From Agromyces ramosus (lineage in GTDB: Bacteria > Actinomycetota > Actinomycetes > Actinomycetales > Microbacteriaceae): DNA of 64,000 nucleotides. Positions within the stretch are counted from its first letter, which is position 1, and each line of letters starts with the position of its first letter. Where the stretch lies: positions 186,001-250,000 of the forward strand of contig NZ_JAUSYY010000001.1 of assembly GCF_030817175.1 (NCBI RefSeq), given 5' to 3'. The translations under genes were made by a program, and so were the position numbers. Below the pieces are notes generated by a model. That model did no database searches, was not told where the DNA came from, and saw nothing but the letters and a program-made list of their open reading frames with translations. Below are positions 17,607-31,114 of this stretch, one piece after another.

Positions 17607-17731
17607 GCGGCGGCCTCGAAGTAGCGGTCGAGCACGAGCTCGACGAGCGGCTCGGGCGGCGAGGCATCCGTGCGGCCCTCGGGCGACGACGTGCCGTGCG
17701 AGGCGGCCACGAGCGCCGGCGGCCGGGTCAT
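17588..17731 (-). pseudogene. internally deleted CbiX-type chelatase remnant coupled to nirD
   Basis: A 47-codon frame whose ATG overlaps the nirD stop (ATGA). Its first half, ALVAASHGTSSPEGR, matches the N-terminal metal-binding His segment of sirohydrochlorin chelatases (compare LVAVTHGSPSPANR in the intact gene at 30237-31004). Its second half, PLVELVLDRYFEAAAL, matches that protein's extreme C-terminus (ALVELVLDRYSAIELV). Roughly 200 middle residues are missing without a frameshift. It therefore looks like the ends of a nirD-cbiX operon left after a deletion. A small functional peptide cannot be excluded, but with only one His motif it could not chelate by itself. Confidence 0.75.
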
Positions 17732-18078
17732 CGGTCGAGCTCGACCTCGATCATCCCGCCCACGATGCGCGTGCGATAGGTGCGCAGGGCGAGGCCGGGG
17801 TCGGTGAAGCACTCGCCCGTCCCGAGGTCGTAGACCTCCTTGTGCAGCGGCGAGGCGATCGTCGGCCGATCGCCGCGCGAGCCGACGATTCCGCGGGCCA
17901 TCACGGGCGCACCCGTGTGCGGGTCGTGGTGGGTCACGGCATACACCTCCTCATCGGTGATTCGAACGAGCGCGACCTGGTGGGTGCCGAGCAGCGCGAC
18001 CTCACCCCATCCCGGCTCGAGGTCCGCGACCTCGCACGTGCGCTCCCAGGTGGTCGTCATCTCGATCGTCGGCGGCAT
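17728..18078 (-). CDS. nirD: assimilatory nitrite reductase small subunit
   Basis: NirD, the Rieske-fold partner of NirB. 116 residues from ATG 18078, which has AGGAG 5 bp upstream. Core: WGEVALLGTHQVALVRI, YAVTHHDPHTGAPVMARGIV, PTIASPLHKEVYDLGTGEC. The usual [2Fe-2S] Cys/His ligands of Rieske proteins are absent, as is normal in NirD. It is transcribed away from nirB from its own half-site-array promoter. Separate divergent nirD and nirB is unusual, since nirBD is generally one operon. Confidence 0.93.
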   Translation of the reverse strand: MPPTIEMTTTWERTCEVADLEPGWGEVALLGTHQVALVRITDEEVYAVTHHDPHTGAPVMARGIVGSRGDRPTIASPLHKEVYDLGTGECFTDPGLALRTYRTRIVGGMIEVELDR

Positions 18079-18103
18079 CGGGGCTCCTCTCATCCTGGCA
18101 CCG

Positions 18104-18168
18104 ACGCTACGTTCCGGGTGTTTCCCCTGCGGCCTCCGAGTGTTTCACCGAGGTGAAACCGCCCTCAC
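18104..18168 (-). promoter_or_regulatory. GlnR/NnaR-like half-site array and -10 box of nirD
   Basis: Read on the minus strand: GTGAG (18164-18168), TTCAC (18153-18157), GAAAC (18142-18146), a degenerate AGGCC (18131-18135), GAAAC (18120-18124), all at 11-bp steps, then n10 and TAGCGT (18104-18109). The steps match the known actinobacterial GlnR box GTnAC-n6-GAAAC. The TAGCGT is 25 bp upstream of the nirD ATG. Confidence 0.65.
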
Positions 18169-18206
18169 ATCGACGACGAGCGCGCGTGCGTTCGAGGTTG
18201 GTCGCG

Positions 18207-18249
18207 GTTACCTCGACGTAACAGGGCGGAAACGGCCCGGCCCTACGCT
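18207..18249 (+). promoter_or_regulatory. GlnR box and -10 of the nirB operon
   Basis: GTTAC (18207-18211) n6 GTAAC (18218-18222) n6 GAAAC (18229-18233) n10 TACGCT (18244-18249). Three consecutive half-sites at 11-bp steps fit the GlnR consensus closely. The -10-like box is 27 bp before the nirB ATG, which has a GGAGG SD. Confidence 0.7.
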
Positions 18250-18276
18250 CGCCTCATTCGAGACCCGGAGGCAGCC

Positions 18277-20890
18277 ATGACCGAGAGCACCCACGCCGCG
18301 CCCGGCGTGCGCGACGTCGTCATCGTCGGCGGCGGGCCTGCGGCGCACCGACTCGCCGACAGCCTGCACGCCCGCGACGCCGACCGCACGCTGCGGGTGA
18401 CCGTCGTCGGCGAGGAGCTCCACGAGCCCTACGACCGCGTGGCGCTGAGCACGAGGCTCGCGGATGCCGCAGCCGACCTCACCCTGCAGCCGTCGTCGAT
18501 GTGGGACGACGAGCACATCCGCCTCGTGACCGGCGAGCGTGTCGTCGCCGTCGATCCCGTCGCTCACACGGCGACGACCTCCGGCGGTCTGGCCCTGCAC
18601 TGGGACGAGCTCGTGCTCGCCACCGGGTCGAGCGCTCCCGTGCCCGAGATCCCGGGCCACCAGCACGCGCGGGTGTACCGCACCATCGACGACGTCGACT
18701 CCCTGGTCGCCGAGACCCGCACGCTCGCCCAGCGTCACGGCCGACCCGCTCGCGTCGTGGTCGCGGGCGGCGGCCTCCTCGGACTGGAGGCCGCCGGCGG
18801 CCTCGCCAAGCTCGGTGCCCACGCCGCGGTCGTGCACTCGGGCGGCTGGCTCATGTCGGCTCAGCTCGATGAGGGCGCCGGCCGCGCCCTCGGCCGCATC
18901 ATCGCGGGCCAGGGCATCGGACTGCACCTGGGCACCAGGCCGGCAGCCGTGCTCGTGGAGGACGACGCGGTCGTCGGCGTGGAGCTCACGAACGGGCGGA
19001 CCAATCGAGATCGACCTCGTGGTCTTCGCCATCGGCATCAGCCCGCGCGATGAGCTCGCCCGCGGACTCGGGCTCGAGCTCGGCCCGCGCGGCGGCGTCG
19101 CGATCAGCACGGCGTGCGCGGCATCCGCCCCCCACATCTGGGCGATCGGCGAGGTCGCGAGCTTCGAGGGTCGTTGCACCGGCCTCGTCGCGCCGGCGAA
19201 CGCCATGGCCGAGGTCGTCGCCGACCGGCTGCTCGGCGGTGCCGCGGAGTTCACGAGCGTCGACGACGCGACGAAGCTGAAGCTCTCGGGCGTCGACGTG
19301 GCGAGCTTCGGCGACGCTCTCGCCCGCACCGAGCAGGCGCTCGAGATCGTCTACGCCGACCCGGCGCGCGGGCTCTACCAGAAGCTCGTGATGACCGACG
19401 ACGCGAAGACGCTGCTCGGTGGAATCTTCGTCGGCGACGCCTCGCCCTACGCGTCGTTGCGGCCACTGCTCGGCACGCAGCTCTCGAGCGAGCCTGCCGC
19501 GTACCTCTCGGCTTCGGGCATGGAGGCGCCCGCGGGCGACGAGCTACCCGCCGCGGCGCTCGTCTGCGCGTGCAACAACGTCAGCGCCGGCACGATTCGC
19601 GACGCCGTCGCCGGCGGTCACGCCGACCACGCCGACGGCTGCACCGAGCTCGGCGCCCTCAAGACGTGCACGCGTGCCGGAACGCAGTGCGGCTCGTGCG
19701 TGCCGCTCGTGAAGAAGCTGCTCGAATCGGAGCTGAAGAAGTCGGGCATCACGCCCTCCCGGGCGCTGTGCGAGCACTTCGAGCTCTCGCGTCAGGAGCT
19801 CTTCGAGTCGATCCGGGTGCTCGAGCTCGCCTCGTTCGACGAGATCATCGCCCGCCTCGGCACCGGGCGCGGTTGCGACGTGTGCAAGCCCGTCGTCGGC
19901 TCGATCCTCGCCACCCAGCACGGCTCGTACATCCTCGACGGCGGCCGTGGCGGACTCCAGGACACCAACGACCGGGCCATGGCGAACATGCAGAAGGACG
20001 GCACCTACTCGGTCGTGCCGCGCATCCCCGCCGGCGAGATCACGCCGCAGAAGCTCGCCGTGATCGCGCAGGTCGCCACCGACTTCGGGCTCTACACGAA
20101 GATCACGGGCGGGCAGCGCATCGACCTCTTCGGCGCCCGGCTCGACCAGCTGCCCGAGATCTGGAAGCAGCTCGTCGACGCGGGATTCGAGTCGGGCCAG
20201 GCCTACGGCAAGGCCCTCCGCAACGTGAAGAGCTGCGTCGGCTCGACGTGGTGCCGCTACGGCGTGCAGGACTCGGTCGCGATGGCCGTGCAACTGGAAC
20301 TGCGCTACCGCGGCCTCCGTTCACCGCACAAGTTGAAGTTCGGGGTCTCGGGATGCGCCCGCGAGTGCGCCGAGGCCCGCGGCAAGGACGTCGGCGTGAT
20401 CGCCACCGACCAGGGCTGGAACATGTACGTCGGCGGCAATGGCGGCTTCCAGCCCGCCCATGCGCAACTGCTCGCGAGCGACCTCGACGATGAGACGCTC
20501 CTGCGCTACATCGACCGATACATCATGTACTACATCCGCACCGCCGACCGGCTGCAGCGCACCGCCCGGTGGATCGAAGACCTCGAAGGCGGCGTCGACC
20601 ACGTGCGCGACGTGGTCGTGAACGACTCCCTCGGCCTCGCCGACGAGCTCGAGCAAGCCATGGCCAGGCACGTCGACACCTATGAGGACGAATGGGCGGC
20701 GACCCTCGCCGACCCCGAGCGGCTCCGCCGGTTCCGCTCGTTCGTGAACGCGCCGAACGTGCCCGACCCCTCGATCGCCCGCGTCTCCGAGCGCGGGCAG
20801 TTCCGCCCCGCCACCGACGAAGAGCGCGAACGCGGCGAGGCCGTGCTCGTCGCCGGTCCGACGATCCCCGTGCGGGGAGCCGGCGCATGA
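18277..20890 (+). pseudogene. nirB: assimilatory nitrite reductase large subunit, single-base frameshift
   Basis: NirB reduces nitrite to ammonium with NAD(P)H. The first frame runs 18277-19053. The family match leaves it at about 18995 and resumes one base on, running to 20890; dropping one G from the GGG at 18994-18996 restores V-E-L-T-N-G-G-P-I-E-I-D and an about 870-residue protein, the normal length. Domains: FAD/NAD(P)-binding (VIVGGGPAAHRLA; VVVAGGGLLGLEAAG), a BFD-type [2Fe-2S] module (CACNN...GTQCGSC), then the sulfite/nitrite reductase repeats with siroheme-[4Fe-4S] ligands C-x5-C (SCVGSTWC) and C-x3-C (GCARECAE). All other motifs are intact, so the lesion is recent or a sequencing error. 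The 3' end overlaps cobA by 4 bp. Confidence 0.85.
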
Positions 20891-21663
20891 CCGGCCGGGT
20901 GACCCTCGTGGGAGGCGGCCCGGGCACCGACGACCTCCTCACCGTCGCCGCCGTGCGAGCGCTCGCCGCGGCCGACGTCGTGCTCTACGACCGGCTCGCG
21001 CCGCACGCCCGGCTCGCCGAGCACGCGCCGAACGCCGAGCTCATCGACGTCGGCAAGCGGCCCGGCCACCACGCCATTCCGCAATCCGAGATCGAGGCGC
21101 TCATCGTGGGGCACGCCGAGGCGGGCGCGCGGGTCGTGCGGCTGAAGGGCGGCGACCCGTATGTGCTCGGTCGCGGCAGCGAGGAGGTGCTCGCGTGCCA
21201 TCGCGCCGGCATCCCGGTCGAGGTCGTCCCGGGTGTCACGAGCGCCGTCGCCGTTCCCGCCGCCGCGGGGATCCCGCTCACGCACCGCGGCGTGAGCCAC
21301 CTCTTCACGGTGGTCTCGGGTCACGCCCCGCTCACCGAGGCCGAGCTCACCCACCTCGCGGGCCTCGGCGGGACCATCGTGGTGCTCATGGGCGTGAGCG
21401 CGCTGCCCTCGCTCACCGCGGGCCTCGCGCGCGCCGGACTCGACGCCGAGATGCCCGTCGCGATCATCGAACGCGGCTTCCAGGCCGGCCAGCGCACGAC
21501 GACCGGCACGCTCTCCGACATCGTCGGGGCGGCCGGCCGTGCGCAGGTCGCCTCACCCGCCGTCGTGGTGATCGGAGAGGTGGTGCGCCTCGCCCACGAC
21601 GGCGAGGCCGACTCGCTCGCACTCATCGACCGGGCGGCGCGCCTCGCCGCGGTGTTCCCGTGA
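20887..21663 (+). CDS. cobA: uroporphyrinogen-III C-methyltransferase
   Basis: SUMT makes precorrin-2 from uroporphyrinogen III with two SAM, the first committed siroheme step. 258 residues, a stand-alone methyltransferase without the CysG dehydrogenase/chelatase part. Motifs: LVGGGPGTDDLLTVAA, VLYDRL, VVRLKGGDPYVLGRGSEE, VVPGVTSAVAVPAAAGIPLTHR and GTIVVLMGV. Start and stop overlap nirB and nnaR by 4 bp each (ATGA, GTGA), so expression is tied to nitrite reductase. The chelatase step is supplied by the cbiX gene at 30237; no precorrin-2 dehydrogenase is in the window. Confidence 0.96.
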   Translation: MTGRVTLVGGGPGTDDLLTVAAVRALAAADVVLYDRLAPHARLAEHAPNAELIDVGKRPGHHAIPQSEIEALIVGHAEAGARVVRLKGGDPYVLGRGSEEVLACHRAGIPVEVVPGVTSAVAVPAAAGIPLTHRGVSHLFTVVSGHAPLTEAELTHLAGLGGTIVVLMGVSALPSLTAGLARAGLDAEMPVAIIERGFQAGQRTTTGTLSDIVGAAGRAQVASPAVVVIGEVVRLAHDGEADSLALIDRAARLAAVFP

Positions 21664-22793
21664 CCGACACGATCGACGAGCGAGCCCTCGGCTTCCGCCC
21701 CGACCAGCTCGAGGGATTCCGCATCGGGGTCACGAGCGATCGGCGCTCCGGCGACCTCATCGACGCGCTCGAACGTCGTGGGGCGCAAGTGGTGCACGCG
21801 CCGACGCTCCGCATCGCGAACTCGCAGTCCGACGAGCCGGTGATCGCCGACACCCGGCGCATCATCGAGGCCCGCCCCGACGTGCTCCTCGCGACCACCG
21901 CCTACGGGGTCCGGCGCTGGTTCGAGGTGGCGGATGCCGCGGGCCTCGGCGAGGAGCTCGTCGACGCGCTCGCCGAGACGGCGATCCTCGTGCGGGGCCC
22001 CAAGGCTCGTGGGGGCATCCGCGCCGCCGGCCTCAACGACGTCGGCATGAGCCCGGAGGAGACGACGGGCTCGCTCATCGACACGGTGCTCGCCGACTAC
22101 CCGTCGGGCCTGACGGTCGCGGTGCAGATGCACGGGTTCCTCGCGTCCGAGGAGCTCGACCGGCTGCGCGCGGCGCACACGCGGGTGCTCACGGTGGAGC
22201 CGTACCGCTGGATCCAGCCCGATTCCTCCGATGAGCGGGTGAGCCGGCTGATCGAGGCGGCCTGCGGCGGCGGCCTCGACTGCATCATGTTCACGAGCGC
22301 TCCGGCGGTGCACGCGTTGTTCAGTGCCGCCGAATCGCTCGGCCGGCTCGACGACCTCATCGACGCGATGTACGGCGCGGTGGTCACTGCCGCGGTCGGC
22401 CCGGTGACCGCCGCCCCGCTCATCGCGCTGGGCATCGAGCCGATCCAGCCCGAGCGCTACCGCATGGGCGCCCTCATCCGGCTCGTGTGCGAGCACCTCG
22501 AGCAGGATCGCGTCGCCCGCCTCGAGACCCGTCACGGACCGCTCGGGCTGCGCGGCACGGTCGTCGAGCTGGAGGGGCGCAGGATCTCACTCGCGCCGAC
22601 CGCCCACACCATCATGCGCACGCTCGTGCGTGCGGGCGGCTCCGTCGTCGGCCGCGATCGGCTCGCCGCATGCCTGCCCGGCACCGACGACGACCACGCG
22701 CTCGAGGTCGCCGTGAGCCGGCTGCGACGCACGCTCGGCGTGCCCGGCCTCATCGCGACGGTCGTCAAGCGCGGGTATCGGATCGACGTATGA
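21660..22793 (+). CDS. nnaR: NnaR-type regulator: uroporphyrinogen-III synthase-like domain fused to winged-helix DNA-binding domain
   Basis: 377 residues, GTG start inside the cobA stop. Residues about 15-275 resemble HemD (uroporphyrinogen-III synthase: FRIGVTSDRRSGDLIDALERRGAQVVHAP, FTSAPAVHALF). About 290-377 form an OmpR/PhoB-type winged helix (SLAPTAHTIMRTLVRAGG, ALEVAVSRLRRTLGVPGLIATVVKRGYRI). This is the architecture of NnaR, reported in Streptomyces and Mycobacterium as a co-activator of nitrate/nitrite assimilation genes together with GlnR. The HemD domain may sense a tetrapyrrole or have lost catalysis; not decidable here. OmpR-type domains bind tandem half-sites, which matches the 11-bp-phased arrays in this island. 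Confidence 0.88.
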   Translation: MTDTIDERALGFRPDQLEGFRIGVTSDRRSGDLIDALERRGAQVVHAPTLRIANSQSDEPVIADTRRIIEARPDVLLATTAYGVRRWFEVADAAGLGEELVDALAETAILVRGPKARGGIRAAGLNDVGMSPEETTGSLIDTVLADYPSGLTVAVQMHGFLASEELDRLRAAHTRVLTVEPYRWIQPDSSDERVSRLIEAACGGGLDCIMFTSAPAVHALFSAAESLGRLDDLIDAMYGAVVTAAVGPVTAAPLIALGIEPIQPERYRMGALIRLVCEHLEQDRVARLETRHGPLGLRGTVVELEGRRISLAPTAHTIMRTLVRAGGSVVGRDRLAACLPGTDDDHALEVAVSRLRRTLGVPGLIATVVKRGYRIDV

Positions 22794-22855
22794 GCGCGCG
22801 GCGCGTGCGGCGTGGCCTGATTGCGTCGACGACCTCACGCGGCGTGATCCGCGAG

Positions 22856-22920
22856 GTGAGCAACACGAGACAGAGCGTTCACCGTGCGCGCGAACCGCGG
22901 AAATACCAGCTGGATAGCTT
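22856..22920 (+). promoter_or_regulatory. GlnR/NnaR-like half-site array and -10 box of narK
   Basis: Sites at 11-bp steps: GTGAG (22856-22860), GAGAC (22867-22871), TTCAC (22878-22882), degenerate CGCGA (22889-22893), GAAAT (22900-22904), then n10 and TAGCTT (22915-22920), 45 bp before the narK ATG. This is the same geometry as the nirD and cbiX promoters, with weaker half-sites. Confidence 0.6.
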
Positions 22921-22965
22921 CGGTGGCACGAGCTTCACCCACCTCTCCCCTCACCGGAGGCTGCG

Positions 22966-24366
22966 ATGACCGACACCACGACATCCACCACGACCACCAC
23001 GACCACCGGATCCGAATTCACCGAGACGACGGCCGGCACCCTCACCCATCGGCCGGGTCGCTGGATCGACGGCTGGAACCCCGAAGACGATGCGCAGTGG
23101 TCGTCGGCGGGTCGTGCCATCGCGCGCCGGAACCTGGTCTGGTCGATCTTCGCCGAGTTCCTCGGATTCGTCGTCTGGCAGCTCTGGAGCGTCGTGGCGG
23201 TGAAGCTGCCCGACGCCGGATTCGCGTTCGGATCGAACGAGATCTTCTGGCTCATCTCCATTCCGAGCCTCGTCGGCGCGACGCTGCGAGTGCCCTACTC
23301 GTTCCTCGTCCCCCGCTTCGGCGGCCGCAACTGGACGATCATCTCCGCTGGACTCCTCCTCATCCCGACCATCGCCCTCGCGGTGTGCGTCGGCAATCCC
23401 GAGACGCCGTTCGGCGTGATGCTGGCGGTCGCGGCCCTCGCCGGGTTCGGCGGCGGCAACTTCGCGAGCTCCATGTCGAACATCACGTTCTTCTACCCGA
23501 AGCGCGAGAAGGGCTGGGCGCTCGGGCTGAACGCCGCAGGCGGCAACCTCGGGGCATCCGTCGCCCAGTTCATCGTGCCGATCGTCATCACCATCGGCGC
23601 GAGCGCCACCCTGAACCTGCCCATCGCCGGCTGGATCTGGGTGCCGTTTATCCTCCTCGCCATGATCGGCGCCGCACGGTACATGAACAACCTGTCGTCG
23701 GCGAAGGCCGACTTCGCGGGCTCGGCGGCAGCGTTGCGCGAGCCGCACCTCTGGATCCTGTCGCTGCTGTACATCGGCACCTTCGGCTCGTTCATCGGCT
23801 TCGCGAGCGTGTTCCCGAAGCTCATCGCCGACCAGTTCCCCGAGTTCTCGAGCATCGCCGTCGGCGGGGCATCCATCTCGCTCGCCTTCCTCGGGGCCCT
23901 CGTCGGCTCGCTGGCCCGCCCGTACGGCGGACGCCTCTCCGACCGGTTCGGCGGTGCCCGCATCACGATGCTGGTCTTCGCATCGATGGCCGTGATCACC
24001 ATCGCCGTGATCTGGACGCTGCCGCTCGGCAACTTCTGGCTGTTCCTCGGCTGCTTCCTGCTGTTGTTCGCGGCCGCCGGCATGGGCAACGGCTCGACCT
24101 ACCGGATGGTGCCGATCGTCTTCGCCATCCGGGCATCGGGCGACGACGGGGCGCGGGCACGCAAGGCCGCGGCCGCGCTCGGGCTGATCTCCGCGATCGG
24201 CGCGTACGGCGGCTTCCTCATCCCGCAGGCGCTGAACGTCTCGTTCCAGGCCTCGGGCGGCTACCAGGCGGCATTCCTCGCATTCGTCGCCTTCTACGTC
24301 GTGCTCCTCGCCGTCACGTACCTCGTGTACGTCCGGTCGGGCCAGCTGCGCGAGCACCGGGTCTGA
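22966..24366 (+). CDS. narK: NarK-type nitrate/nitrite transporter (MFS)
   Basis: Major-facilitator nitrate importer or nitrate/nitrite antiporter, 466 residues with 12 predicted helices. The nitrate-signature regions are visible: GFGGGNFASSMSNITFFYPK followed by LGLNAAGGNLGAS in TM5, and AAAGMGNGSTYRMVPIVF in the second half. The N-terminus is an unusual cytosolic Thr-rich tail (residues 2-15 nearly all Thr/Ser, from ACC/ACG repeats). The GGAGG SD precedes the ATG. First gene of narK-nasA-nasB-like; nasA starts 5 bp downstream. Import versus exchange mode cannot be decided by eye. Confidence 0.94.
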   Translation: MTDTTTSTTTTTTTGSEFTETTAGTLTHRPGRWIDGWNPEDDAQWSSAGRAIARRNLVWSIFAEFLGFVVWQLWSVVAVKLPDAGFAFGSNEIFWLISIPSLVGATLRVPYSFLVPRFGGRNWTIISAGLLLIPTIALAVCVGNPETPFGVMLAVAALAGFGGGNFASSMSNITFFYPKREKGWALGLNAAGGNLGASVAQFIVPIVITIGASATLNLPIAGWIWVPFILLAMIGAARYMNNLSSAKADFAGSAAALREPHLWILSLLYIGTFGSFIGFASVFPKLIADQFPEFSSIAVGGASISLAFLGALVGSLARPYGGRLSDRFGGARITMLVFASMAVITIAVIWTLPLGNFWLFLGCFLLLFAAAGMGNGSTYRMVPIVFAIRASGDDGARARKAAAALGLISAIGAYGGFLIPQALNVSFQASGGYQAAFLAFVAFYVVLLAVTYLVYVRSGQLREHRV

Positions 24367-24371
24367 ACCAC

Positions 24372-26498
24372 ATGACCGGCGCCTCGACCCCCACCCACTG
24401 CCCCTATTGCGCGCTGCAGTGCGCGATGTCGCTCACGGCGTCGCCCGCTGCGTCATCTGCAGGGTCGGCGGATGCCCCGAGCGCGCCGGTCACGGTCGCG
24501 GGCCGCGACTTCCCGACCAATCGCGGCGGACTCTGCAAGAAGGGCTGGACCTCGGCCGAGCTCCTCCGCGCGCCATCCCGCCTCCTCGCCCCGCTCGTGC
24601 GCGGCGAGGACGGCGAGCTCCACGAGAGCGGATGGGACGAGGCGCTCGATCTCGTGGCGGCGCGGCTCCGGGGCATCCGTGCCTCGCATGGCGCCGACGC
24701 GGTCGGCGTGTTCGGCGGCGGCGGCCTCACGAACGAGAAGGCGTACCAGCTCGGCAAGTTCGCGCGGCTCGCGCTCGGCACGAGCCGCATCGACTACAAC
24801 GGCCGGTTCTGCATGTCGTCGGCGGCGGCAGCCGGCAACCGGGCGTTCGGCGTCGACCGCGGACTGCCGTTCCCGCTGGAAGACCTCGACGGGGCGGCCA
24901 CCGTGCTCCTCCTCGGCAGCAATCCCGGCGAGACGATGCCACCGTTCATCGGGCACCTCGCGGGAGCGCAAGCGGCAGGCGGTCTCGTCGTCGTCGACCC
25001 GCGTCGCACCGCGACCGCCCGCCTCACCGACGACGGCAAGGGGATGCACGTGCAGCCCGCGCCCGGCACCGACCTCGTGCTGCTGCTCGGACTCATCCAC
25101 CTCGTGATCGCCGAAGGGCTCGTCGACGACGAGTACGTGGCGACGCGCACGACGGGATTCGACGGCCTGCGGCGAAGCGTGGCCGCGTGGTGGCCCGAAC
25201 GCGTGCAGTCGATCACCGGCGTGGCGGCACTGACGCTGCGCCGTCTCGCGCGGCGCCTCGCGTCGGGCGCGCCGACGTTCATCCTCACCGGCCGCGGCGT
25301 GGAGCAGCACGTCGACGGCACCGACACGGCGACCGCCGCCATCAACCTCGCGCTCCTGCTCGGACTCCCCGGACGACCGGGGTCGGGCTACGGCACGCTC
25401 ACCGGCCAGGGCAACGGGCAGGGCGGGCGGGAGCACGGGCAGAAGTGCGACCAGCTCCCGGGGTACCGGAAGATCACCGACCCCGACGCCCGTGCGCACG
25501 TCGCGCGCGTGTGGGGCGTCGCCCCCGACGTCATCCCGGGTCCCGGCATCCCCGCCGTGGAACTGCTGCAGTCGCTCGGGCGGCCCGGCGGACTCCGGGC
25601 ACTCATGGTGCACGGCTCGAACGTCGTCATCTCGTCGCCGAACGCCGGCGCCGTGCGGCACGGACTCGAGTCGCTCGACTTCCTCGTCGTGTGCGACTTC
25701 TTCCGCTCGGAGACGGCCGACCTCGCCGACGTCGTGCTCCCCGTTGCCCAGTGGGCCGAGGAGGAGGGCACGATGACCTCGCTCGAGGGGCGGGTCATCC
25801 GTCGACTGCCTGCCCTCGACCCGCCCGAAGGGGTGCGTGACGAGCTCTGGATCCTCCATGAGCTCGCGCGTCGGCTCGACGCACCCTCGGTGTTCCACGT
25901 GCGACCGGAAGACGTGTTCGAGGAACTGCGACTCGCCTCGGAGGGCGGCATCGCCGACTACTCCGGCATCGACTACGCCATGCTCGACGCCGGCGAGGCC
26001 GCCTACTGGCCGTATCCGCGCGGGAGCCGCGGCACGCCGCGCCTGTTCGCCGACCGGTTCGCGCACGCCGACGGGCTCGCGAGGCTCGTGTCGGTGAGGG
26101 TGCGCGCCGAGGTGGAGCATCCGTCGCCCGCCGACGTGCTCACGCTCGTCACCGGCCGCCTGCTCGAGCACTACCAGAGCGGTGCGCAGACGCGACGGGT
26201 CCCCGAGCTCGCCGACGCCCAGCCCGAGGCGCTCGCGACGGTGCATCCGGCGACCGCGGCCCGGTTCGACATCCGCGACGGCGACACCGTCGAGCTCGTC
26301 AACTCCCGTGGCGTGGTGCGATGCCGCGCACGACTCTCGACCGACATCCGACCCGATGCCGTGTTCGTGCCGTTCCACTTCGCGGGCCTCCAGACCGCGA
26401 ACCTGCTCACCTCCGACGCCGTCGACCCGGTGTCGGCCATGCCCGAGTTCAAGACCAACCTGGTCTCGATCCGGCCGATCTCCGAGGCGGTGGCCTGA
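24372..26498 (+). CDS. nasA: assimilatory nitrate reductase catalytic subunit (molybdopterin oxidoreductase)
   Basis: Cytosolic Mo-bis-MGD enzyme reducing nitrate to nitrite; 708 residues. N-terminal [4Fe-4S] ligands C-x2-C-x3-C (HCPYCALQC, residues about 9-16) and a fourth Cys in RGGLCKKGW. Then the molybdopterin domains (RFCMSSAAAAGNRAFG, LLGSNPGETMPPFI, VVDPRRTATARL, HGSNVVISSPNA) and a C-terminal molydopterin-dinucleotide-binding domain (ATVHPATAARFDIRDGDTVELV...VFVPFHF). No Tat signal, as expected of an assimilatory enzyme. The C-terminal BFD domain found in some NasA is lacking here and present instead on the downstream flavoprotein. The stop overlaps the next start by one base. Confidence 0.94.
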   Translation: MTGASTPTHCPYCALQCAMSLTASPAASSAGSADAPSAPVTVAGRDFPTNRGGLCKKGWTSAELLRAPSRLLAPLVRGEDGELHESGWDEALDLVAARLRGIRASHGADAVGVFGGGGLTNEKAYQLGKFARLALGTSRIDYNGRFCMSSAAAAGNRAFGVDRGLPFPLEDLDGAATVLLLGSNPGETMPPFIGHLAGAQAAGGLVVVDPRRTATARLTDDGKGMHVQPAPGTDLVLLLGLIHLVIAEGLVDDEYVATRTTGFDGLRRSVAAWWPERVQSITGVAALTLRRLARRLASGAPTFILTGRGVEQHVDGTDTATAAINLALLLGLPGRPGSGYGTLTGQGNGQGGREHGQKCDQLPGYRKITDPDARAHVARVWGVAPDVIPGPGIPAVELLQSLGRPGGLRALMVHGSNVVISSPNAGAVRHGLESLDFLVVCDFFRSETADLADVVLPVAQWAEEEGTMTSLEGRVIRRLPALDPPEGVRDELWILHELARRLDAPSVFHVRPEDVFEELRLASEGGIADYSGIDYAMLDAGEAAYWPYPRGSRGTPRLFADRFAHADGLARLVSVRVRAEVEHPSPADVLTLVTGRLLEHYQSGAQTRRVPELADAQPEALATVHPATAARFDIRDGDTVELVNSRGVVRCRARLSTDIRPDAVFVPFHFAGLQTANLLTSDAVDPVSAMPEFKTNLVSIRPISEAVA

Positions 26499-28132
26499 TG
26501 ACCCGACCGATCGTCCCGAATGGATCGACCCCGTTCCGGGTCGTGCTCGTCGGCTTCGGCCCGGTGGGAGCGCGCCTCGTCGAGGAGCTGCTGCCCGCCG
26601 TGCGCTCCGGCGAGATCGGCCTCACGGTCGTGGGCGTCGAATCCGCCCACGCGTACAACCGCGTGCTCGTCGCCGAGTACGCCGTCGGTGGCACGTCGCT
26701 CGACGCGATGAGCCTCGCCGACCGCGACGAGATGGAGCTCGCCGGTGTTCGACTGCTCACCGGCGTGCAGGTGGCGTCGATCGAGCGTGAGGCGCACACC
26801 GTCACGCTCGACGACGGTGAGCTCCTCCCCTACGACCGGCTCGTGCTCGCCACTGGCGCTCGCGCGAACGTGCCGACCCTCGACGGCGTCGAGCGGCATC
26901 GCCGCGACCGGATGTCGCTCGAGAAATACGGCGCCGCACTCATCGGGCGCGACGACGCACTGCCGGCGGGCATCACCTCGCTCCGCGACCTCGACGACGC
27001 GGAACGCGTGCTCGAGGCGGTGCGCGACCGCCGTCGCATCGTCGTGCTCGGCGCCGGCGTGCTCGGACTGGAGATCGCGCTCGCCGCCGCGCACGCGGGC
27101 GCCCAGGTGTGCGTCGTGCATCACGGGCCGCACCCGATGCCCCGCAACCTCGACCGAGGCGGCGGGCAGGTGCTGCGCACGGCGCTGCGCCGCACCGGGG
27201 TCTCGGTGATCGCGCACAGCCGCGCCGAGGCCGTCGGGTTCCGCACCGACGACGACGGCACCCGGCGCTTCGACTTCCTCGTCACGGCCGACGGCAAGAC
27301 GTTGCACGGCGACCTGCTGCTCCTCTCCTGCGGCGTGACGCCGCGCACCGACCTCGCCGTGCTGGCGGGCCTCCGCACCGCGACGGGCATCGTCGTTGAC
27401 GCCGACCTCCGCAGCTGGACCGACCCCGACATCTCGGCCATCGGCGACTGCGCACAGGTCGTCGAACGCACCGAGGAGACCGCGGGCCGCCGGGACCTCC
27501 CCGGCGCGCCGTCAGGGCTCATCGGTCCCGGCTGGCGGCAGGCGGCGTGGCTCGCCCGGCAACTCGTGGCGGTGGCGCGCGGCCAGGAGCCCGAGACGTC
27601 GGCGCCGGCCGAGCGTGACGCCATCGTCGCCCTCAAGGCAGAGCACGTCGACGTCGTGGCGGTCGGCCAGGTGACCGCCGACCCGTGGGAGGACGATGCA
27701 CTCGTGCCGAGCCGCGGCATCGCCCAGTGGGCCGACGCCGAGCACGGCCGGTACGTGAAGATGATCACCGACGGCGGCGTGCTCACGGGGTTCGTGAGCA
27801 TCGGCATGCCGAGGACCGCCGCCGAGCTCACGTTGCTGTTCGAGCGCCGCGCGGAGCTTCCGGCCGATCGATCGATGCTGCTGCGCTTCGACGGCCCCGA
27901 CTACGACCCGCGCGATGACGCCGACGCGTTCGCGCCGACCTCGACGGTGTGCTGGTGCAACGCGGTCACCGTCGAGGGCATCGAGACGTCAGCCTCGTGC
28001 GGCAACACCACGGTCGACGGGGTCGGCCGCGACACCCGTGCTGGCACCGGCTGCGGCGGCTGCAAGGGTCGCATCGCCGAGGTGCTCGCGCGCTACGCCG
28101 ACAACGAAGAGGCGACGAGGCTGACCGGCTGA
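26498..28132 (+). CDS. NasB-like FAD-dependent electron-transfer subunit of nitrate reductase
   Basis: 544-residue NAD(P)H-dependent flavoprotein related to the first half of NirB. FAD motif VLVGFGPVGARLVEELL (about 14-30), the ATGARANVP motif, the NAD(P) motif IVVLGAGVLGLEIALAAAHAG (about 180), the second FAD motif DPDISAIGDCA, and a C-terminal BFD-like [2Fe-2S] domain CWCNAVTVEGI...GTGCGGCKGR. It is expected to pass electrons from NAD(P)H to NasA. ATG in a TGATG overlap with nasA. Its last 40 bp overlap the 3' end of moeA on the other strand, so both C-termini share DNA. Confidence 0.88.
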   Translation: MTRPIVPNGSTPFRVVLVGFGPVGARLVEELLPAVRSGEIGLTVVGVESAHAYNRVLVAEYAVGGTSLDAMSLADRDEMELAGVRLLTGVQVASIEREAHTVTLDDGELLPYDRLVLATGARANVPTLDGVERHRRDRMSLEKYGAALIGRDDALPAGITSLRDLDDAERVLEAVRDRRRIVVLGAGVLGLEIALAAAHAGAQVCVVHHGPHPMPRNLDRGGGQVLRTALRRTGVSVIAHSRAEAVGFRTDDDGTRRFDFLVTADGKTLHGDLLLLSCGVTPRTDLAVLAGLRTATGIVVDADLRSWTDPDISAIGDCAQVVERTEETAGRRDLPGAPSGLIGPGWRQAAWLARQLVAVARGQEPETSAPAERDAIVALKAEHVDVVAVGQVTADPWEDDALVPSRGIAQWADAEHGRYVKMITDGGVLTGFVSIGMPRTAAELTLLFERRAELPADRSMLLRFDGPDYDPRDDADAFAPTSTVCWCNAVTVEGIETSASCGNTTVDGVGRDTRAGTGCGGCKGRIAEVLARYADNEEATRLTG

Positions 28133-29313
28133 GCCGCGCCGTCGGCGCCCGGCATCGGCAGGAGCAGCGGCACGCCGTCGGGCGGCACGACCACGAACCC
28201 GTCGGAGCCCGCGAGGCCCATGAGCATCGCCGAGCCGTCTCGACCGGTGAGCTCGGGCACGCCGTCCACGAGTCGCACGGGCCGGAGGAGTGTGCGGCGC
28301 GCGTCTCGCGTGACGCCGGCGTCGGCGGATGGCGCCGGCTCCGACATCGGCACCCCGGCCATGCCCTCGAGGAGCGGCGGGGCGAAGCTCAGGAGGCACG
28401 CGAAGGCCGCGAGGGGGTTGCCGGGGAGCCCGAGGATCGGGACGCCGGCACCGGTTCGGCCGAACAGCACCGGATGCCCCGGCCGCATCGCGACCCCGGC
28501 GACGACGAGCTCGCCACCACCGGATCGGACGGCTCGCTGCACGTGGTCGGAACGCCCGGCCGCGGTGCCGCCGGTCGTCACGATGAGCTGCGCCGAGGTC
28601 GTGGCGATCGCCTCGGCGAGCCGGTCCGCCTCGTCGGCGCCGCGTCGTGCCCGTACGTCACCCGCACCGAGCCGACGCAGCAGGGACGGCAGTGCCGGCC
28701 CGAAGGCGTCTCGCACCCGGCCCGGCTGCGGAACGCCGCGGTCGATGACCTCGTCGCCGGTCACGACGACGTCGACGTCGGCTGCGGCGGTGACCTCGAC
28801 CGTGTCGACTCCCGCGGCTGCCGCGAGCGCGATCAGCGCTGGATGCACCCGGCGGCCGGCCTCGGCGAGGAGGGTGCCCGCGCCGAGCTCCTCGCCGCGG
28901 CGTCGGAGGTCGGCGCCGCGCTCTGGCACTGGACGCCCGTCACGCATCGCGAGCAGCCCGCGTGGACCGTCGAGAATCGTGGCGTGTTCCTGCCGCACGA
29001 TCGCGGTGGTGCCGGGGGGCACCGCTCCCCCCGTCGTGATGGCGCGCGCGCGACCGGGCCGGAGCGGCGCCCCGGGTGCCGAGCCGATGCGGATGGTCGC
29101 GCCGATGGCCCACGGACCACCGCCCGCGACAGCCCACCCGTCCATCGCGCTCGCGTCGGCGGTGGGGAGGTCGACGAGCGCCCGGACCGCCCGCGCGAGC
29201 ATGAGCCCGTCGGCGTCGGCGAGCTCGACGATGCGCGCCGTGGTCGGCGCGAGGCCGCCGACCCTCCATGCGAGCCGGCGAGCGGCGCGCCAGCTCGGCG
29301 CGGCGTCGCTCAT
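28093..29313 (-). CDS. moeA: molybdopterin molybdotransferase MoeA
   Basis: MoeA inserts molybdate into adenylylated molybdopterin. 406 residues. N-terminal MoeA segment with SAMDGWAV, MoCF-binding domain with VVVTGDEV...GRVRDAFGPALPSLLRRLGA, the TTGGTAAGRSDHV loop, PGHPVLFGR and LGLPGNPLAAF, and the C-terminal domain IV. Last gene of cbiX-mobA-DUF6457-moeA; its ATG overlaps DUF6457 by 4 bp. The cofactor serves NasA encoded convergently. Some active-site loop residues (TTGGTAAGRSD for the common TTGGVSVGDYD) are divergent, typical of actinobacterial nitrate-linked MoeA paralogues. Confidence 0.92.
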   Translation of the reverse strand: MSDAAPSWRAARRLAWRVGGLAPTTARIVELADADGLMLARAVRALVDLPTADASAMDGWAVAGGGPWAIGATIRIGSAPGAPLRPGRARAITTGGAVPPGTTAIVRQEHATILDGPRGLLAMRDGRPVPERGADLRRRGEELGAGTLLAEAGRRVHPALIALAAAAGVDTVEVTAAADVDVVVTGDEVIDRGVPQPGRVRDAFGPALPSLLRRLGAGDVRARRGADEADRLAEAIATTSAQLIVTTGGTAAGRSDHVQRAVRSGGGELVVAGVAMRPGHPVLFGRTGAGVPILGLPGNPLAAFACLLSFAPPLLEGMAGVPMSEPAPSADAGVTRDARRTLLRPVRLVDGVPELTGRDGSAMLMGLAGSDGFVVVPPDGVPLLLPMPGADGAAQPVSLVASSLSA

Positions 29314-29600
29314 CGCGGTTCCGCACCGGCGTCGGCGTGGGCATCGGCATCGGCATCAGCGCCCCGCGCGAGCCGTGTGACGATGTCGGCCACCTGCTCG
29401 AGCGTCGCCCCTCTGGCGAGCGCGAATCCCGCGAGGAACGTGGTCACGGGCGCTGCCGGCCTGGCCACCCGGTGCGCAGCGAGCCTGGCGAGGTCGAGCA
29501 CGCCGGCGATGTCGACGGCGCGGTCGAGACCGCGTGCGTCGAGGCCGAGGGCCGCCACGAGGTCGGTGGTCCACTGCTCGAGGTCACGTGGCTCAGCCAT
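29310..29600 (-). CDS. DUF6457 domain protein
   Basis: 96-residue helical protein from ATG 29600 (GGAG 8 bp upstream): LEQWTTDLVAALGLDARGLDR, VLDLARLAAHRVARPAAPVTTFLAGFALARGA, ending in an Ala/Asp tail. Small proteins of this family sit next to mobA/moeA in many Actinobacteria, often fused to MobA; a Moco-assembly accessory role is inferred from that. It overlaps mobA's end and moeA's start. Confidence 0.8.
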   Translation of the reverse strand: MAEPRDLEQWTTDLVAALGLDARGLDRAVDIAGVLDLARLAAHRVARPAAPVTTFLAGFALARGATLEQVADIVTRLARGADADADAHADAGAEPR

Positions 29601-30240
29601 CGTCGGTGCTCCCATCGGGAGTGGCGTGCGCGGGAAGCGTCACACCGAAGTGCGCCGCGTCGTCCGGAGTGTCGAGATCGCGACACCACTCCTCGGGCAT
29701 CACGGCCTCGAGCAGTGGCATCCGCTCGAGCACCGCGCGCATGGAGGCCCCTCGGCCGTCGCGCCGCGCCGCGGATTCGACGACGGCGGCCACCGCGGCG
29801 CGCAGCCGGTCGCTGCGGTACACGGCGAGCAGGGGCTGGCGGATGCCACCGCCGGCGACGGCGACGACGCCCTCGGCATGGGACCCGTGGGCGGTTGCGT
29901 CGCCCGCCAGGCCGAGCAGACGCTCGACGGCCGGCGACGCAGACGGGAGGTCCGCCGCGAGCACGATCGTGAAGGGCGAGCTCGACTCGATCGCGGTGAG
30001 CCCGGCCGCGAGCGCTGCCACCGGACCAGACCATCGCGGCGTCTCCTCGGCGAGGCTCACGCGCGAGTCGGACGATGACGTCACCCGGTGTCCCACGAGC
30101 ACGACCCGACGGGCGCCGGCGACCGACGCGACCGCACGATCGGCGAGACTCACGCCGCGCACGACGAGCGACGGCTTGTCGACCCCGCCGAGCCGCGAGC
30201 CGCGGCCGCCGGCGGGAATCACCGCGTCGTACTCGATCAC
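29593..30240 (-). CDS. mobA: molybdenum cofactor guanylyltransferase MobA
   Basis: Adds GMP to Mo-molybdopterin to give the MGD form used by NasA. 215 residues. Nucleotidyltransferase signature IPAGGRGSRLGGVDKPSL at the N-terminus, the VVLVGHRV strand, LAADLPSASP (metal Asp) and QPLLAVYRSD. GTG start at 30240 overlapping the cbiX stop (GTGA). Second gene of the cbiX-mobA-DUF6457-moeA operon. Confidence 0.9.
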   Translation of the reverse strand: MIEYDAVIPAGGRGSRLGGVDKPSLVVRGVSLADRAVASVAGARRVVLVGHRVTSSSDSRVSLAEETPRWSGPVAALAAGLTAIESSSPFTIVLAADLPSASPAVERLLGLAGDATAHGSHAEGVVAVAGGGIRQPLLAVYRSDRLRAAVAAVVESAARRDGRGASMRAVLERMPLLEAVMPEEWCRDLDTPDDAAHFGVTLPAHATPDGSTDDG

Positions 30241-31004
30241 GACGCCCCGCCGTGCACGAGCTCGATGGCCGAATACCGGTCGAGCACCAGTTCGACGAGC
30301 GCTGAGGGAGCTTCCCGGTCGGGAAGCAGCAACGGCTCGGCGATCACGTCGCCGCCGAGCGTGGCTGCGGTGTCGTAGAAGGCGCCCGGCGCGAGCAGGT
30401 AGGCGCCGACGACGATGCGGGCGCCGGGATGCACCTCGCGCACCATCTCGATGGCGTCGGGAAGCCGTGGAAGCCCGGCGGCGATGAACCCGACGGTCAC
30501 GGGCCGGCTCAGGCGCTGCGCAAGCAGGCGCGCCGTCTCGAAGCATTCGCGCACGGCGCGCGGGTCGTTCGACCCGGCGGCGGCGAGCAGCACGGCGTCG
30601 CGGTCGGTGAGGTCGAGTGCTTCGAGTCGTTCGGCGAGCACGTCGGCGATGCGCGCGTCGGGGCCGAGCTCGGGGGCGAGGCTGCTCGACCCGCCGATGC
30701 GGTCGAGTCCGAGCCCGAGGCCCGTGCGCACGTGGAACCCGGCCGACAGCACGAGGGGCACGATGACGGCGCCGGGCGACGCCGCGTCGCCAGCGACGGC
30801 GGCCGCGACATCCGTCGACCGCGCATCGACGAAGCTGATCGAGACGTCGAGCTCGGGGCGCACGGTGGCGACCGCGTCGACGAGCCGGATGACGGCGGCA
30901 CGATTCGCCGGTGACGGCGAACCGTGCGTGACCGCCACGAGTCGGAGTGGCGATGGTGCCGTTTCATCGCGAGTGGCCGTTGCGGCTTCGCTCGACCCGA
31001 CCAT
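30237..31004 (-). CDS. sirohydrochlorin chelatase-like protein (CbiX/SirB family), intact copy
   Basis: Class II chelatase expected to insert Fe2+ into sirohydrochlorin for siroheme. 255 residues with two chelatase half-domains. The N-terminal active His is in LVAVTHGSPSPANR, the second His in VLSAGFHVRTGLGLGL, and the second half starts at DAVLLAAAGSNDPRAV. The C-terminus PSALVELVLDRYSAIELV is the stretch also kept in the remnant at 17588-17731. It leads the operon with mobA, DUF6457 and moeA, an uncommon mix of siroheme and Moco genes that makes sense for nitrate/nitrite reduction. Expressed from a half-site-array promoter abutting the end of trmD. Confidence 0.88.
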   Translation of the reverse strand: MVGSSEAATATRDETAPSPLRLVAVTHGSPSPANRAAVIRLVDAVATVRPELDVSISFVDARSTDVAAAVAGDAASPGAVIVPLVLSAGFHVRTGLGLGLDRIGGSSSLAPELGPDARIADVLAERLEALDLTDRDAVLLAAAGSNDPRAVRECFETARLLAQRLSRPVTVGFIAAGLPRLPDAIEMVREVHPGARIVVGAYLLAPGAFYDTAATLGGDVIAEPLLLPDREAPSALVELVLDRYSAIELVHGGAS

Positions 31005-31049
31005 GCATGCACCCGCTCTCCGGCGGGTGGAGCTCAGCCGCCGGTTTCG

Positions 31050-31114
31050 ACGCTATGCACGGCGTGTTTCGCGGCGGGCACTCACGTGTTTCGGGCAGGT
31101 GAATCCCTGCTCAC
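31050..31114 (-). promoter_or_regulatory. GlnR/NnaR-like half-site array and -10 box of cbiX-mobA-moeA
   Basis: Minus strand: GTGAG (31110-31114), TTCAC (31099-31103), GAAAC (31088-31092), degenerate GTGCC (31077-31081), GAAAC (31066-31070), n10, TAGCGT (31050-31055), 45 bp before the cbiX ATG. Order and spacing equal those of nirD. The distal half-site overlaps the trmD stop codon (31111-31113). Confidence 0.65.

Follow-up and report, generated by a model that had tools for sequence, protein, structure and literature searches.

Which regulators act on the nitrate assimilation genes of Agromyces ramosus, and do the promoters of these genes share a common plan? In a stretch of 64,000 nucleotides (the window) from a genome of 4.01 Mb, a first-pass annotation had described half-site arrays at the promoters of nirD, nirB, narK and cbiX, with sites at 11-bp steps and the last site 10 bp before a TANNNT box. 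All of these features are present in the sequence at the positions listed below. The arrays are very probably GlnR-activated promoters of the nitrate island with a site for a co-activator, NnaR, directly upstream; from the DNA sequence we infer binding, transcription starts, cooperation and signals.

The nitrate island and its four arrays

The island carries nirD, moeA, a mobA-like gene, cbiX and trmD on the reverse strand and nirB, nnaR and narK on the forward strand. A tetrapyrrole methylase gene lies between nirB and nnaR, nnaR itself is sited between nirB and narK, and past narK follow a molybdopterin oxidoreductase and an NAD(P)H-type oxidoreductase. The genes considered here are:

17728..18075, reverse strand: nirD, nitrite reductase small subunit (TIGR02378, E 6.6e-25); the start may be 18093
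18277..20890, forward strand: nirB, nitrite reductase large subunit (Pfam), in two frames here and in one frame in relatives
21660..22793, forward strand, start position approximate: nnaR, HemD (uroporphyrinogen-III synthase) domain joined to a DNA-binding domain of the OmpR type (PF02602, PF00486, NF005568)
22966..24366, forward strand: narK, nitrate/nitrite transporter (MFS_1, NarU-type match)
30237..31004, reverse strand: cbiX, sirohydrochlorin chelatase family (PF01903, E 1.8e-17)

The narK product scores under the TIGR00886 cut-off (297.3 versus 311.7 bits), and its nearest relatives, among the best 80 of 130 loci in genome contigs, are mostly from Agromyces. The frame of nirB changes near 19000 (about 18990-19053 of the window, forward strand); both parts lie in one frame in 13 of 13 relatives checked, and the change is either a sequencing error or a recent mutation. 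The gene for GlnR is found at G000:C1:681272 (L004; best PDB match 8hih_O, E 4.4e-74), and a Trans_reg_C domain scores above the cut-off at nine loci of the genome, including those of NnaR and GlnR. A scan of the region upstream of nnaR revealed no convincing array. The arrays and their sites, with predicted assignments, are:

18104..18168, reverse strand: nirD array, read from the sequence and kept in relatives, GTGAG TTCAC GAAAC aggcc GAAAC, n10, TAGCGT; NnaR proximal half GTGAG 18164-18168, GlnR a1 TTCAC 18153-18157, b1 GAAAC 18142-18146, degenerate a2 AGGCC 18131-18135, b2 GAAAC 18120-18124, -10 TAGCGT 18104-18109
18207..18249, forward strand: nirB array, read from the sequence, GTTAC GTAAC GAAAC, n10, TACGCT; GTTAC 18207-18211, GTAAC 18218-18222, b2 GAAAC 18229-18233, -10 TACGCT 18244-18249
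18164..18190, both strands: NnaR palindrome common to nirD and nirB, whose promoters diverge; it reads CTCAC-n17-GTGCG on the forward strand and CGCAC-n17-GTGAG on the reverse
22834..22920, forward strand: narK array with NnaR box, kept in relatives, CTCAC-n17-GTGAG GAGAC TTCAC cgcga GAAAT, n10, TAGCTT; CTCAC 22834-22838, GTGAG 22856-22860, GAGAC 22867-22871, TTCAC 22878-22882, cgcga directly preceding b2 on the lattice, b2 GAAAT 22900-22904, -10 TAGCTT 22915-22920
31050..31114, reverse strand: cbiX array, read from the sequence, GTGAG TTCAC GAAAC gtgcc GAAAC, n10, TAGCGT; lone NnaR half-site GTGAG 31110-31114, a1 TTCAC 31099-31103, b1 GAAAC 31088-31092, a2 GTGCC 31077-31081, b2 GAAAC 31066-31070, -10 TAGCGT 31050-31055

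The order of sites is identical at nirD and cbiX, as had been proposed. At narK the order differs, and the lattice of nirB itself comprises three sites, none of them GTGAG. The spacers of nirD and cbiX, said to match at 8 of 30 bases, in fact match at 13 of 34 (8 of 24 counting only the gaps between sites), with a chance identity of 0.29. The -10 box had been placed 25-45 bp before the start codon; from its end to the start we count 27 bp at nirB, 45 at narK and 45 at cbiX, but at nirD only 10 to the ATG at 18093. The next in-frame ATG of nirD, at 18075, is about 28 bp away and is preceded by AGAGGAG.

Predicted GlnR operators and the -10 box

The four arrays are predicted GlnR operators of the order a1-b1-a2-b2. 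Half-sites of the a- and b-type (gTnAc, GaAAc) separated by n6 are clear at nirD, nirB and cbiX and degenerate at narK, where GAGAC, TTCAC and GAAAT are loose matches. The GlnR identity proposed by the first-pass annotation fits the published operator, gTnAc-n6-GaAAc-n6-GtnAC-n6-GAAAc, as given in a review (PMC10704036). At nas of Amycolatopsis mediterranei, a1, b1 and b2 suffice (PMC10704036), and the a2 site of amtB in Streptomyces coelicolor is described as atypical, dispensable and located at the -35 position (PMC5826061). Because the published a2 is dispensable and occupies the -35 position, the degenerate site and the position of b2 in our arrays are what would be expected. The GAAACA of the Agromyces arrays also fits Gn2AC-n6-GnAACA, the GlnR motif of Mycobacterium smegmatis (PMC3662644).

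In the same genome, the promoter of glnA (the gene being confirmed by Pfam) reads GTAAC-GAAAC-GTCAC-GAAAC-n10-TAGCGT. That of amt, likewise confirmed, reads GTAAC-GAAAC-n17-GAAAC, with GAAACT and no TANNNT 10 bp on. Across 120 genomes of the family we searched GAAAC-n17-GAAAC-N{4,16}-TANNNT; among the matches listed, 90 of 112 had n=10, and the other spacings from 4 to 16 together held 22. Thirty loci of these listed matches were inspected, 23 at n=10 and 7 at other spacings. The former comprised 19 before glnA, one before nirD and three without an assigned gene; none of the latter precedes the genes looked for. A longer pattern searched in 158 genomes of the class gave 42 matches in 38 genomes, with b2 10 bp from the -10 box in 39 and 11 bp in 3, and one control match. 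The 10-bp link is a general feature of GlnR promoters and is not specific to nitrate genes, although the amt promoter speaks against a strict rule. It had been put forward as undescribed: as a property it belongs to GlnR promoters at large, foremost glnA, while the exact 10-bp spacing is stated in no paper that we found among the openly licensed ones searched. Two GlnR boxes at nasA are reported to lie 1 bp apart (PMC10704036).

The arrays are rare in the genome. The search called for by the first-pass annotation, run with GTNAG-n6-TTCAC-n6-GAAAC, returned nirD and cbiX as the only two matches in 4.01 Mb, and none for the reversed control. GAAAC-n10-TANNNT matched 10 times versus once for the control; nirD, nirB, cbiX and glnA account for four of these, and at the remaining six, for which we make no claim, an upstream array is absent or partial. 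KTNAC-n6-GAAAC gave 16 matches versus 2.

Two further sites were noted in these searches. One is GAAAC-n10-TATCGT (G000:C1:149066-149086, L092), which has no clear array upstream and is followed directly by a gene for NAD synthase (Pfam NAD_synthase). GTAAC-n6-GAAAC-n10-TACGCT lies 6 bp before a short ORF (G000:C1:1329122-1329153; L097, L109), which we take to resemble an acetyltransferase; this is a possible single-box GlnR target.

The predicted NnaR box and its conservation

The extra GTGAG had been thought undescribed, yet it equals one half of the published NnaR motif CTCAC-n-GTGAG (PMC6277429, PMC11162112), given in one source as CTCAC[A/C][Cg]-13-16-GTGAG[CG][GA] (PMC11162112). NnaR had already been named as a second candidate regulator, and this stands: it is encoded within the island and GTGAG matches its half-site. 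We predict that the GTGAG of the arrays is the proximal half of this known box. The inverted partner had been overlooked: near the GlnR box, CTCAC lies 22 bp before GTGAG at narK (CTCAC-n17-GTGAG), and CGCAC, one letter off, 22 bp before GTGAG at nirD (CGCAC-n17-GTGAG, common to nirD and nirB). The n17 falls within the 15-18 of the PMC11162112 pattern; the M. smegmatis motif has 18. NnaR and GlnR motifs are reported to be similarly spaced in most transcripts (PMC6277429).

To follow the sites in relatives, promoters were passed through a filter that asked for at least four of the five b2 letters, a TANNNT box 10 bp further on and reasonable matches to a1 and b1; a 1-bp shift was tolerated, and GTGAG and CTCAC played no part. 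This filter passed 29 of 51 nirD, 56 of 78 narK, 14 of 30 cbiX and 17 of 69 nirB regions, and many of those dropped lie upstream of distant homologues. At the position 44 bp ahead of b2, GTGAG occurs in 24 of the 29 nirD promoters and in 0 of 20 glnA promoters, and it is the nitrate-specific part of the arrays. The other five nirD promoters have GAGAG, and the distal half is CGCAC in 15 and CTCAC in 11 of the 29. Among the narK promoters, GTGAG and CTCAC occur in 22 of 56 each, and together in 18. At the 29 loci with a filtered nirD promoter, the distance between the palindrome and b2 of nirB is 43 bp at 19 and 44 bp at 7; two loci lack a nirB b2 and in one the box is beyond the stretch examined. 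With 26 of 29 at these two distances, a single NnaR box would serve both of the divergent promoters, its distance to nirB b2 varying by 1 bp. The phase is not absolute: the nirB side measures 43 bp in 19 of 26, and at narK b2 is displaced against b1 by 1 bp in 29 of the 56 filtered rows.

The spacing was also searched directly. GTGAG-N{26,52}-GAAAY-n10-TANNNT in the 120 family genomes gave 108 listed matches. Gap 39, which puts GTGAG 44 bp from b2, accounts for 31 of them, and gaps 38 and 40 for 12 and 6; the other 24 gaps hold 59, a mean of 2.46 per gap, and a Poisson figure from these counts is only a guide, because the reversed control matched too and the genomes are related. Among the 29 of 30 loci that were classed, a relative of nirD, nirB or narK follows 5 of the 6 with gap 39, 4 of the 7 with gap 38 and none of the 16 with any other gap. 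In the 158 class genomes, CTCAC-N{14,20}-GTGAG-N{28,50}-GAAAC-n10-TANNNT matched 18 times in 17 genomes, with no control match, and GTGAG lay 43 bp from b2 in 10, 44 in 4, 45 in 3 and 46 in 1, out of an allowed 33-55. The A. ramosus genome is not among the 17 because its narK array ends in GAAAT and its nirD has CGCAC. The test with GTGAG-N{1,14}-KTNAC-n6-GAAAC was weaker: of 59 matches, 14 have a gap of 6 and 9 a gap of 1, and every remaining gap has 1-5. Taken together, genome-wide rarity, peaks at single spacings and sites kept among low-information spacers back the earlier proposal that site spacing is under selection.

At cbiX, GTGAG is kept in 11 of 14 filtered relatives, and a distal CTCAC or CGCAC 22 bp upstream of it occurs in 0 of these 14 and is absent from the window too, so that cbiX would have an NnaR half-site only. 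In A. ramosus this GTGAG (31110-31114, reverse strand) overlaps the trmD stop codon. The stop was rejected as the cause of its conservation, as it lies 21-53 bp upstream in 13 of 13 relatives with trmD. In Mycobacterium abscessus, sirB belongs to an NnaR-dependent operon (PMC11162112). We consider cbiX a likely additional GlnR/NnaR target gene; none of the openly licensed papers searched was found to mention a lone NnaR half-site or to name cbiX among the GlnR/NnaR targets of Microbacteriaceae.

NnaR was matched over nearly its full length in all 50 relatives' genomes given (of 80 loci), with an identity of 56-82% in 26 and 39-46% in 24. An NnaR box was found in 0 of 18 narK promoters examined from the low-identity (Microbacterium) group. 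CTCTC-n17-GTGAG/A is kept in narK promoters of the M. testaceum type (L037, L039, L043, L049, L054, L062, L070), which were dropped by the filter or lie outside the list of 18; we therefore claim neither that NnaR has changed its specificity in the Microbacterium group nor that NnaR and its box simply co-vary. Many Microbacterium-type narK regions (among L027-L091) have b2 one base beyond 22 bp from b1, and many have extra lattice sites further upstream.

A proposed composite promoter, its alternatives and known systems

TANNNT is conventionally taken as positions -12 to -7. On this numbering b2 would lie at -27 to -23, a2 at -38 to -34, b1 at -49 to -45 and a1 at -60 to -56, with the proximal NnaR half-site at -71 to -67 and the distal one at -93 to -89. 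Since b2 is 10 bp before the -10 box, a2 would stand in place of a -35 element. We propose that GlnR binds head to tail on the 11-bp direct repeats a1-b1-a2-b2, where it would substitute for the -35 element, contact RNA polymerase and help to recruit it. NnaR would bind CTCAC-n17-GTGAG on the same helix face as GlnR, its proximal half being 11 bp, or one turn, before the next lattice site, and would aid GlnR when nitrogen is limiting and nitrate or nitrite is present. Cooperative binding of NnaR and GlnR is reported for the nirB promoter of S. coelicolor (PMC10704036). At the lone half-site of cbiX, NnaR would need the help of GlnR.

A stricter version, which we rate somewhat below an even chance, is that NnaR site, GlnR site and -10 box form one rigid composite across actinomycetes (half-site to b2 43-46 bp, b2 to -10 10-11 bp) with a fixed NnaR-GlnR contact, that one palindrome drives two promoters and that a lone half-site recruits NnaR at cbiX. 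No published statement of such a ruler, kept within 1-2 bp, was found in the openly licensed papers searched.

GTGAG lies on the common 11-bp lattice, shares four of five letters with GTnAC and has no inverted partner at cbiX, and might thus be a further, degenerate GlnR half-site, NnaR not being involved. We consider this unlikely: at nirD and narK it is paired with an inverted CGCAC or CTCAC at a fixed distance, as in the published NnaR motif, it is absent 44 bp before b2 in every one of 20 glnA promoters, and all 29 filtered nirD promoters have G in the last place, where GTnAC ends in C. The GAAAC repeats could instead be used by MtrA or another OmpR-type regulator, since the motifs and DNA-binding domains of MtrA and GlnR are nearly identical (PMC6277429) and the genome has the nine Trans_reg_C loci, NnaR and GlnR among them. 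However, glnA, a classic GlnR target, has the same array and -10 link, and the island genes are nitrogen genes; replacement of GlnR is very improbable, while MtrA may compete for the GAAAC sites. The narK sites and the a2 positions are loose matches, as chance patterns in GC-rich sequence would be, but the rarity, the sharp peaks and the conservation of sites described above make chance scarcely credible.

A CRP-like palindrome, GTGA-n8-TCAC within GTGAG and TTCAC, was also considered and rejected. CRP palindromes have a spacing of n6, and the TTCAC position reads GTTAC in 10 of 29 nirD relatives.

The reading with GlnR as activator and NnaR beside it would supply a precise sequence ruler with which GlnR and GlnR-plus-NnaR promoters can be located in actinomycetes. 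It adds cbiX as a likely siroheme-supply target in Agromyces-like bacteria, and the cbiX promoter is a natural half-site case for testing NnaR-GlnR cooperation.

The literature already describes GlnR boxes, an a2 that can be dispensed with, and NnaR boxes situated next to those of GlnR. The Agromyces arrays resemble the GlnR operators of S. coelicolor glnA and amtB and A. mediterranei nas in half-sites, n6, 11-bp steps and a dispensable a2 at -35 (PMC10704036, PMC5826061); they differ in a1, which is TTCAC and not GTnAC at nirD and cbiX, and in nothing essential. The proposed assembly is like the GlnR transcription activation complex seen by cryo-EM, where a promoter of four sites carries RNA polymerase and four GlnR DNA-binding domains arranged head to tail (PMC10704036); as described there, that complex is without NnaR, unlike the proposed nitrate promoters. 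CTCAC-n-GTGAG precedes the GlnR box of narK and nir genes, as it does in S. coelicolor, M. smegmatis and M. abscessus (PMC6277429, PMC11162112). Unlike the NnaR boxes of those species, one palindrome here lies between divergent promoters, and a lone half-site precedes cbiX.
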